Shown: positions 32,593 to 34,654 of the stretch, piece after piece
Layout of the letters: each line of letters starts with the position of its first letter
Position numbering within the stretch: position 1 is the first letter of the stretch
NCBI RefSeq assembly: GCF_030128875.1
Contig: NZ_CP124620.1
Span: 3,855,001 to 3,919,000 of the forward strand
From: Stenotrophomonas sp. BIO128-Bstrain
GTDB taxonomy: Bacteria > Pseudomonadota > Gammaproteobacteria > Xanthomonadales > Xanthomonadaceae
Direction of reading: 5' to 3'
Length of the DNA stretch: 64,000 bases
Position numbers and translations under genes: made by a program
The notes under the pieces: generated by a model
What the model was told of the DNA's origin: nothing
The model's database searches: none
The model's input: only the letters and a program-made list of their open reading frames with translations

Positions 32593-32786
32593 TGTGGATA
32601 AAAAGAGGCCTTGGAACAGGCTTTAAAGATACCCACAGGATCACCCCCAGGCTCAGGCCCTGTTTTACCGGGGGTTTCGAGGCCCTAATTCTCTTTGTAA
32701 CCAACCATTTAACCTACTTTTCAACCAAATCTGGCCCTACCACCACCACCTAGCTTTAGATTTATATACAGTTTTTAAAAGCATAG
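32593..32786 (+). repeat. Origin-like inverted repeat, arm A (recF-dnaN gap)
   Basis: Collinear with the reverse complement of 34393-34586 over an equal length with only small indels. Matching blocks are TGTGGATAAAA at the outer end, TAAAG-N-TA-N-CCACA, GGGTTTCGAGG (32672-32682), and a 57-base block at 32730-32786 that I count as about 86% identical (TCTGGCCCTACCA...AGCTTT...GATTTAT...AAAGCATAG). In arm B the last block ends 14 bases before the dnaN start codon. Confidence 0.88.
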
Positions 32787-33100
32787 AGCTGTGATTCAGC
32801 GGCAGAAAGCCGACTCGTCGCGGCGCTCCAGATCTGGAGAGAACTCTGTCCTGGTTCGCAGTGGCGGCTTAACAGGATTCGCGCGATTGGCGGCGGGCAG
32901 GCGCTACCGAGCCACTTTTGCACCTGCGTTCGATAACGATCACCCCATCGCAAGATCGCTACTGGTTTGTGAGCGCAGCGAGGATGCGAATCGCGTGTGC
33001 CGGTGGCGACCTTGGTTCACGTGGCCGGTAACCATGGAGATCGGCCTTCACCCCCTACCCATGAAGCAGGCCTGCGTGTGCGGATACCCGGTCAGACAAG

Positions 33101-33145
33101 CAGGCAGGCAGGCGGGCAGACGGGCAGACGGGCAGACGGGCAGAC
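33101..33145 (+). repeat. Tandem repeats near dnaN: CAGG x3 then GGGCAGAC x4
   Basis: Three CAGG units (33101-33112) lead into four exact GGGCAGAC units at 33114-33121, 33122-33129, 33130-33137 and 33138-33145. Exact short repeats like this can vary in copy number between strains. No coding role is apparent. Confidence 0.85.
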
Positions 33146-33180
33146 GAAGCAAGCATCTCCGAGGTTCAACGCTACGACGA

Positions 33181-33196
33181 TGCTCCACGTGGAACA
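33181..33196. promoter_or_regulatory. parS: parS-like site 5
   Basis: TGCTCCACGTGGAACA has one change from the consensus. It lies just beyond the dnaN terminator. Confidence 0.8.
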
Positions 33197-33211
33197 TCGT
33201 TTCTTTCGCCC

Positions 33212-33238
33212 AAAAAGAAACCCGGCAGTGCCGGGCTT
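33212..33238 (-). terminator. Rho-independent terminator after dnaN
   Basis: On the minus strand AAGCCCGGCACTGCCGGGTT forms a GC-rich hairpin followed by CTTTTT. It lies 40-66 bases after the dnaN stop, between two parS-like sites. Confidence 0.75.
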
Positions 33239-33250
33239 CTCAAACAACTC

Positions 33251-33266
33251 GGTTCCACGTGGAACC
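33251..33266. promoter_or_regulatory. parS: parS-like site 6
   Basis: GGTTCCACGTGGAACC is a perfect 16-bp palindrome differing from the consensus only at the two end bases. It lies between the dnaN stop and its terminator. Confidence 0.78.
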
Positions 33267-33277
33267 AGCGCGCCAGG

Positions 33278-34378
33278 TCAGAGACGCAGCGGCATCACCA
33301 CATGACGCGACTTCTCGCTGCTGGCCTCGCGGACCAGGGCAGAGGAGTTCGAATCACGCAGCTGGATCACGACGTGCTCGTCGCGCAGTGCCGATAGGGC
33401 ATCCAGCAGGTAGTTCACGTTGAAGCCGATGGCAAGGTCGCTGACCGTGGTATCGGCCTCGATCTCTTCCTGGGCTTCTTCCTGCTCCGGGTTGTGCGCG
33501 CTGATTTTCAGGTTGCCCGGCGAGACTTCCACGCGGATACCGCGGTACTTCTCGTTGGACAGAATCGCAGCACGCTGCAGCGAGGCACGCAGGGCTTCGC
33601 GATCGACCTTCACTTCGCGATCGGCACCGATCGGGATGACAGCCTCGTAATCCGGGAAGCGACCGTCGATCAGCTTGGAGGTGAAGGTCACATCGTCGCG
33701 CTTGACGCGCACGTGGCTGCGGCCGACTTCCAGCTCGATCTCGCGATCACCGCTTTCCAGCAGGCGCTGCAGCTCGGTCACGCCCTTGCGCGGCACGATG
33801 ATCTGGCGCTTGGCACCGCTGGCCTTTTCCAGCTCGGTTTCGCACAGCGCCAGGCGGTGACCATCGGTCGCCACGGTACGCAGGGCATCGCCACGCAGGT
33901 CGAACAACAGGCCGTTGAGGTAGTAGCGCACGTCCTGCTGGGCCATCGCGAACGCGGTGCGTTCGATCAGCTCCTTCAGGGTCGCTTCGCCGATGGCCAC
34001 GCGCTCGGTGGCTTCGACTTCGTCGACAGACGGGAAGTCGTTGGCCGGCAACGTTGCCAGGGTGAAGCGGCTGCGCCCGGCCTGCACGGTGATCTTGTCA
34101 CCGGTCTGCGAGACGGTGATCCGGCTGCCGTCGGGCAGGGCACGGATGATCTCGAACAGCTTGCGGGCGGGGATGGTGGTCTCGCCGTCCTGGGCATCTT
34201 CCACCGCGATCCGCGACACCATTTCCACTTCCAGGTCCGTGCCGGTCAGCGACAGCTGTCCGTTCTGGACCTGAACCAGGAAATTAGCCAGAACCGGCAG
34301 GGTCTGGCGGCGTTCGACCACGTTGACGACTTGTGCCAACGGCTTGAGAAAGGCTTCGCGCTGCAGTGTGAAACGCAT
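33278..34378 (-). CDS. dnaN: DNA polymerase III sliding clamp (beta subunit)
   Basis: Ring-shaped processivity clamp of 366 residues with three repeated domains. The N-terminus MRFTLQREAFLKPLAQVVNV and the C-terminus ending VVMPLRL, a clamp-typical terminus, are intact. It is separated from dnaA by a 276-base gap and from recF by 1.2 kb, so it is probably its own transcription unit, closed by the terminator at 33212-33238. The two arms of an inverted repeat flank it. Confidence 0.98.
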   Translation of the reverse strand: MRFTLQREAFLKPLAQVVNVVERRQTLPVLANFLVQVQNGQLSLTGTDLEVEMVSRIAVEDAQDGETTIPARKLFEIIRALPDGSRITVSQTGDKITVQAGRSRFTLATLPANDFPSVDEVEATERVAIGEATLKELIERTAFAMAQQDVRYYLNGLLFDLRGDALRTVATDGHRLALCETELEKASGAKRQIIVPRKGVTELQRLLESGDREIELEVGRSHVRVKRDDVTFTSKLIDGRFPDYEAVIPIGADREVKVDREALRASLQRAAILSNEKYRGIRVEVSPGNLKISAHNPEQEEAQEEIEADTTVSDLAIGFNVNYLLDALSALRDEHVVIQLRDSNSSALVREASSEKSRHVVMPLRL

Positions 34379-34654
34379 GTGGTTCCGTGCCCCTATGCTT
34401 TAAAAAAATGTGGAATAAATCAAAAGCTTGGTGGTGCTGGTAGGGCCAGAATCGCGGGAAAACACGACTAAGCCTTTGTAAACAAAAGGGTTTTTGACCT
34501 CGAAACCCTCTGCATTACTAGCCCCCAAGGGGTGGGGAAAGGTGTGGATAACTTTACCGCCGAATCGAGCGGCTTTTTTATCCACAACCTATACCTCGCT
34601 TACTACCGGATTCTGCACCGTTTTATGCGATGACGCCTTAGCGGCGTACATGCA
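34379..34654. other. oriC: dnaA-dnaN intergenic region, probable oriC core
   Basis: Two perfect DnaA boxes in opposite orientation, TGTGGATAA at 34543-34551 and TTATCCACA at 34578-34586, lie among AT-rich tracts (TTTAAAAAAATG at 34400-34411, GTAAACAAAAGGGTTTTT at 34478-34495). The region also serves as the dnaN promoter. The gap upstream of dnaA (35990-36242) has only imperfect boxes such as TTATTCACA (36115-36123), so this side is the better origin candidate. Origin function is inferred. Confidence 0.7.
34393..34586 (-). repeat. Origin-like inverted repeat, arm B (dnaA-dnaN gap)
   Basis: Inverted partner of 32593-32786, same length, with the axis near 33590 inside dnaN. Each arm has a perfect DnaA box at its outer end. 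The inner end holds the sequence immediately upstream of dnaN, so arm A carries a copy of what is probably the dnaN promoter, pointing toward dnaN from the other side. Confidence 0.88.

Follow-up and report, generated by a model that had tools for sequence, protein, structure and literature searches.

Bipartite bacterial origins of replication are composed of two DnaA-box clusters near dnaA with a spacer gene between them, as outlined in PMC4285127. In the examples covered by the cited accounts, the spacer gene is usually dnaA, one of the clusters carries the unwinding element, and DnaA brings the two clusters together, with the gene looped out between them (PMC4285127, PMC5043019, PMC8235120). 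For example, in Bacillus subtilis (oriC1/incAB, dnaA, oriC2/incC) both clusters are described as joined by DnaA with the gene looped out (PMC8235120). A Gram-negative bipartite origin near dnaA and dnaN is reported for Helicobacter pylori and other Epsilonproteobacteria, with clusters that flank dnaA and unwinding seen in oriC2 (PMC5043019).

The Stenotrophomonas locus analysed here, within a window of 64,000 nucleotides (the whole stretch of DNA under study), resembles that of B. subtilis in having two box clusters with a gene between them beside the origin, and resembles that of H. pylori in its place near dnaA and dnaN of a Gram-negative bacterium. In B. subtilis, as presented in the cited account, the spacer gene is dnaA and an unwinding element is described in oriC2 only, whereas here the gene is dnaN and the two candidate halves are homologous mirror images. 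The one-sided unwinding element and the dnaA spacer of the described bipartite cases were not found at this locus. Because the inner blocks are homologous, both are stability minima, and the spacer gene is dnaN, the arrangement is best read as a variant of bipartite oriC, in which this clade of bacteria would have an origin split by dnaN rather than dnaA into two homologous mirror-image halves. A literature search returned no title on the replication origin of Xanthomonas or Stenotrophomonas. Two older papers may bear on it, one by Yen et al. in 2002, reportedly on the X. campestris oriC, and one by Monteiro et al. in 2001, which is said to concern Xylella oriC plasmids.

The inverted arms around dnaN

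A reading made from the letters of the window alone (the sequence-only reading) had proposed that dnaN is flanked by a 194-bp inverted repeat. The genes and arms concerned are the following.

30966 to 32063, minus strand: recF, beyond arm A; Pfam SMC_N (RecF/RecN/SMC), named from position and similarity
32593 to 32786, plus strand: arm A, the inverted second copy of the origin module, within the dnaN-recF gap; runs from its outer end at 32593 to its inner end at 32786
33251 to 33266, no strand assigned: parS-like site just 3′ of dnaN, the second conserved island of the dnaN-recF gap
33278 to 34378, minus strand: dnaN, sliding clamp, the gene between the arms; Pfam DNA_pol3_beta domains
34393 to 34586, minus strand: arm B, origin module in the dnaA-dnaN gap and putative ancestral oriC; outer end 34586, inner end 34393
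34655 to 35980, minus strand: dnaA, beyond arm B; Pfam Bac_DnaA and DnaA_N, start codon inferred

The proposed coordinates and lengths proved correct. The arms, 194 bases each, are reverse complements along their whole length: of 189 aligned columns 134 are identical, and a further 10 positions are gaps. Together with their flanks they reach a local score of 132, far above the shuffled sequence against which the sequence-only reading had suggested setting them (2000 dinucleotide-shuffled pairs; mean 22.7, SD 3.3, maximum 48). When the last 62 bases are removed, the remaining outer part scores 57 against a shuffle mean of 18.9, and none of the 2000 shuffles reached this value. BLAST gives 86% identity between the arms over the inner stretch 32730-32786, the same value as the earlier count of about 86% for the inner 57 bases. 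Arm A as a query against its own genome matches arm A and arm B alone, and a profile of the module (R1, defined below) gives the same two places.

The inner end of arm B lies 14 bases from the dnaN start codon, as had been claimed. The gap beyond dnaN had been described less accurately: arm A was located correctly, but the extent given for the recF-dnaN gap was wrong, the true gap being 32064-33277 (1214 bp). Arm A is an island within this gap, separated by about 490 bp from the dnaN stop and by about 530 bp from the recF start. Four open reading frames of the spacer had no Pfam match, and a scan of the spacer against Rfam revealed no family near the cut-off. A short tandem array of an 8-base GGGCAGAC-like unit lies between arm A and dnaN, at 33089-33146. 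Six parS-like sites (TGTTCCACGTGGAACA, at most 3 mismatches) occupy 2.3 kb at 30991-33266, from recF to just past dnaN; the window has seven in all, where 0.16 would be expected in 64 kb. The one just past dnaN is in the same place as the X. citri parS, which was published at the dnaN 3′ end according to PMC3937727.

DnaA boxes and duplex stability

Comparisons between arms were based on 34 loci with an arm-against-arm score of at least 50, reduced to 30 by dropping the duplicates L083, L086, L089 and L105. The elements recognized within and beside the arms of the window are these.

32570 to 32578, plus strand: extra DnaA-box-like TTATGCACA just outside arm A
32593 to 32601, minus strand: perfect DnaA box TTATCCACA, arm A outer end
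32629 to 32637, plus strand: second DnaA box of arm A, degenerate (2 mismatches in the window)
32737 to 32750, plus strand: conserved CTACCANCACCACC motif adjoining the AT-rich block of arm A
32750 to 32799, plus strand: putative DNA unwinding element of arm A, the least stable 50-base stretch of the whole window
34394 to 34443, minus strand: putative DNA unwinding element of arm B; among separate 50-base stretches of the window, only that of arm A is less stable
34430 to 34443, minus strand: CTACCANCACCACC motif of arm B
34543 to 34551, minus strand: second perfect DnaA box of arm B
34578 to 34586, plus strand: perfect DnaA box, arm B outer end

The perfect box that the sequence-only reading had placed at the outer end of each arm is present on both sides, and the second box of arm A is intact or carries one mismatch in most of the 30 genomes compared. 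With at most one mismatch allowed, these genomes contain 72 boxes within arm A (6.8 kb), 59 within arm B (6.7 kb) and 6 within the spacer (21.6 kb). The densities are 10.6, 8.9 and 0.28 per kb, respectively, and the boxes of arm A are 38-fold denser than those of the spacer. Such boxes occur on both sides of dnaN in 30 of 30 genomes, forming two clusters split by the spacer gene; a single box is left in three rows of arm A (the window, L011 and L090) and one row of arm B (L087). In all ten Xanthomonas rows of arm A an additional box, TGTGCATAA, lies beside the AT-rich block at the inner end, and a further TTATNCACA-type box is found in 10 of the 11 named Stenotrophomonas gaps (at position 32570 in the window). 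Another DnaA-box-like group is present in the rpmH-dnaA gap at 36100-36150, with TTATTCACA at 36115 and a partial box nearby.

Both arms share a pair of DnaA boxes whose starts are 35-36 bases apart in most cases, the elements TACA.GGGTTTCG and CTTT..AACA, and an inner block, AAATCTGGCCCTACCATCACCACCAAGCTTTTGATTTAT....CA..TTTTAAAAGC. This inner motif is also largely present in arm B of genomes that lack arm A. At the dnaN-start side, GGGCACGGAACCAC is nearly fixed in arm B and not retained in arm A. On this ribosome-binding side of dnaN the identity between A and B within genomes is 0.23, versus 0.97 between arm B sequences of Stenotrophomonas and Xanthomonas. Hence, arm A has kept the origin-like part of the module and not the gene start.

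Nearest-neighbour energies rank arm A first and arm B second among the least stable stretches of the 64 kb at lengths of 30, 50 and 100 bases. Ten further loci of 4.1-9.1 kb were ranked likewise, and in nine of them arm A overlaps the least stable 50-mer; in the exception, L011, this 50-mer falls in arm B, with arm A next. The two least stable 50-mers correspond to arms A and B in nine of these ten loci; in L010 the outer end of arm A ranks second and arm B third. Low stability at both inner ends is consistent with a putative unwinding element at each, although AT-richness by itself does not prove opening.

The DnaA-trio pattern is described in PMC8287927 as a DnaA box and a spacer of at most 16 bases followed by at least three.A. 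triplets. In the outer-to-inner direction it was found in 0 of 30 arm A and 3 of 30 arm B sequences, which is within the shuffle range. Read from the inner side it occurs in 12 of 30 arm A sequences (shuffle mean 1.8, maximum 5; related genomes each counted separately) and in 0 of 30 arm B sequences. The CTACCANCACCACC motif was considered as a DnaA-trio and rejected, because the middle base of its triplets is mostly C, which departs from the published pattern. As the DnaA-trio pattern is no commoner than in shuffles in the direction shared by the arms, the assignment of the unwinding elements is based on AT content, stability and conservation.

Distribution and descent of the pair

Among 80 named loci around dnaN, collected by protein similarity and including none named Xylella, arm-against-arm alignment reveals the inverted pair in 17, comprising 11 of 11 from Stenotrophomonas and 6 of 8 from Xanthomonas. 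The Xanthomonas-named records without it are X. albilineans (L021) and a metagenome bin (L070), and the pair is absent by the same alignment from the remaining 61 named loci. The 17 lie 8.5 to 41.6 SD above their shuffles (100 each), versus 2.3 for the best of the other 63. Profile R1, which covers the inner 121 positions of the module and was built from 42 arm sequences, finds two matches in the same 17 loci, one in 57 and none in 6, and the 63 named loci lacking the pair have no module copy on the far side of dnaN. The dnaN-recF gap measures about 0.36 to 1.3 kb in arm A loci, mostly less than 300 bp in those 63, and 273-484 bp in the loci of genera g7 and g2; in two loci it is truncated (L068, where recF was not found, and L071, where the sequence ends early).

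Across the Lysobacteraceae, R1 matched the module in 357 of 395 genomes, a count that is partly circular because some source genomes of the profile are also among those counted. Two matches were obtained in 34/34 genomes of g1 (the genus of the window), 35/35 of g18, 3/3 of g44, 1/1 of g43 and 1/1 of g53. We infer genus identities from named loci: g18 with X. axonopodis (L020), g1 with S. maltophilia (L009), g44 with Stenotrophomonas sp. HITSZ_GD (L011) and g17 with Pseudoxanthomonas (L024). The clade formed by g1, g18, g44 and g43 (34 genomes of the window's genus, 35 of Xanthomonas and four from two nearby genera) therefore carries two copies in 73 of 73 sampled genomes, which answers the earlier suggestion that Stenotrophomonas and Xanthomonas relatives be searched for both arms. 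Both copies lie on one contig, on opposite strands and 1.3-2.7 kb apart from start to start, in 72 of the 73; in draft G175 they are on separate contigs. The nearest lineages without arm A give a single match in 21 of 21 genomes (g7 20/20, g2 1/1), which indicates that arm A is not needed in general. Eighteen of the genomes lacking a match include none from g1, g18, g43, g44, g7, g2, g4 or g45. A full-model scan for a relic of arm A in sister lineages (L021, L091, L093, L098, L099, L100 and L101) returned the arm B match only, with the next best at E of at least 2.4.

Additional copies of the module occur elsewhere in the family. In g4, five of ten genomes have a second copy in direct orientation about 320-420 bp from the first (L119, L120, L121, L122, L123, L126, L128, L129, L130 and L132). 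In g45, one of twelve genomes (G105) has a second copy beside rpmH (L131, 1501-1604), between rpmH and the contig end. The opposite end of this contig begins near the dnaA start, so that on a circular contig the copy would lie in the rpmH-dnaA gap, apparently on the other side of dnaA. The second match of G384, on another short contig of similar sequence, was set aside as an assembly duplicate. Judging from the g4 and G105 copies, the module is apparently a discrete unit, duplicated on more than one occasion in the Lysobacteraceae.

A tree built from 76 arm sequences places 29 of the 30 rows of arm A in one group (support 99/97) with the genus splits inside it. The exception, the arm A of L106 (g53), forms a long branch among distant arm B rows; this locus was kept in the counts and is the outlier of both trees. 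The arm A group adjoins the Stenotrophomonas arm B rows and not all arm B rows (95/78, below firm level), which may reflect noise or some exchange between arms in that lineage. A midpoint-rooted tree inferred from the concatenated DnaN, DnaA and RecF sequences of 45 genomes unites 23 of 23 bearer taxa in one clade with support 100, and the 24th bearer, L106 of g53, lies outside. The neighbour of the clade is L098 (g2, without arm A, support 92), followed by an albilineans-like group, also without arm A; L021 (X. albilineans) groups with g7. The simplest reading of these sequence relationships is that one duplication preceded the split between Stenotrophomonas and the main Xanthomonas lineage and was kept in every descendant examined, while the pair in g53, seen in one genome, may be a separate, parallel duplication.

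Conservation profiles of 23 of the 30 loci (10 Xanthomonas and two Stenotrophomonas groups of 6 and 7) show arm A as a conserved island in a largely saturated dnaN-recF gap. In the 10 Xanthomonas loci, pairwise identity averages 0.86-0.92 at the arm A inner end and 0.15-0.39 across the next roughly 600 bases; the inner-end values of the two Stenotrophomonas groups are as high as 0.97 and 0.98. Overall, identities of 0.86-0.98 at the inner end compare with 0.15-0.4 in most of the adjoining spacer. Other conserved parts of the gap are found just past dnaN, at the parS-like site, and, for two of the three groups, close to where recF starts. The sequence-only reading had attributed the conservation at the inner end to selection or gene conversion. 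The conserved island upholds the part concerning selection, but gene conversion is not needed as the main cause, because the arm A rows cluster together (29 of 30, as above) instead of each with its own arm B. On these profiles, selection seems to have maintained arm A from a time before Stenotrophomonas separated from the main Xanthomonas lineage.

Possible roles of arm A

We consider it probable that arm A arose by an old inverted duplication of the oriC module and is selectively maintained as the second half of a replication origin. Homology, distribution, conservation, retained boxes and low computed duplex stability are seen in the sequences. The identification of arm B as the putative oriC rests on its dnaA-dnaN position and family-wide conservation, since the same oriC-like module occupies the dnaA-dnaN gap of other Lysobacteraceae. 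DnaA binding, looping and opening at the arms are inferred from known bipartite origins. Each half carries its DnaA boxes on the outer side and, toward dnaN, an AT-rich putative unwinding element; by this analogy, DnaA would bind the outer box groups of both arms, the bound complexes would join with dnaN looped out, and one or both inner elements would open to permit helicase loading. The oriC duplication and the bipartite origin with two unwinding regions, both envisaged by the sequence-only reading, thus find in silico support in conservation, distribution, stability and boxes. As an indicator of where replication begins, fourfold-site skew of dnaA, dnaN, recF and gyrB showed no difference of the kind needed between genomes with and without arm A. 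The minimum of cumulative GC skew in the window is at 18316, about 14-16 kb from the dnaN region and not at dnaA.

A fully symmetric origin, in which two complete inverted modules, with inner ends 1.16-2.03 kb apart in the 34 loci, both open and each loads one helicase while dnaN lies in the loop, is conceivable and at present doubtful. Paired inverted initiator sites occur in other domains of life, and a symmetric origin would be their bacterial counterpart.

Arm A might instead regulate initiation near oriC as a DnaA-binding control site, acting by titration or nucleotide exchange and not by opening. The datA and DARS loci of E. coli are likewise non-coding DnaA-binding loci outside the origin proper, the boxes of arm A are dense and retained, arm A adjoins the origin, and sister lineages do without it. 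However, the E. coli loci are not known to have an unwinding element, whereas what is best conserved in arm A is the inner AT-rich block with its adjacent motif and not the box region. A titration site has no need of such a block, so its better preservation counts against a control site, as does the fact that arm A is the least stable DNA of the window; we regard this role as unlikely. A duplicated dnaN promoter, also raised by the sequence-only reading, would make the inner block a promoter and arm A a copy reading toward the dnaN 3′ end to yield an antisense or small RNA. The short distance from arm B to the dnaN start codon fits this, but no sigma-70-like site (−35 and −10 hexamers, 16-18 spacing) was found in 32000-34700 (shuffle mean 0.7), a weak objection because none was found for dnaN either. 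Moreover, the downstream, ribosome-binding side has been lost in arm A, which has retained its DnaA boxes, and the spacer is mostly unconserved and matches no protein or RNA family. The promoter claim was therefore not sustained, and a promoter copy appears improbable.

The faster evolution of arm A relative to arm B (within Xanthomonas, 0.90 vs 0.96 in the inner block and 0.60 vs 0.80 in the box region) and its absence from sister lineages would be expected of a functionless relic of the old duplication in decay. Nevertheless, a conserved island in a largely saturated gap, present in every one of the clade genomes, makes a relic very improbable. Finally, inverted arms on both sides of a gene could act as a recombination device for inverting dnaN, as the sequence-only reading had envisaged. 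This idea is hardly credible, as the arms have no exact run in common longer than 13 bases in the window or 23 in any of the 30 genomes, and dnaN is co-directional with dnaA and recF in all 34 arm A loci, representing 30 different genomes.

The preferred reading, in which arm A is the second half of the origin, suggests that the origin may extend beyond the dnaA-dnaN gap in these bacteria. All sampled species of Stenotrophomonas and of the main Xanthomonas lineage have the mirror halves, which close sisters lack. The reason why some bacterial origins are split is stated as not known in PMC4285127, and the loading of two helicases at one bacterial origin is described as unclear in PMC10201434. 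If the reading is true, a natural origin with two homologous mirror halves would be a direct system for addressing both the split-origin and the helicase-loading questions.
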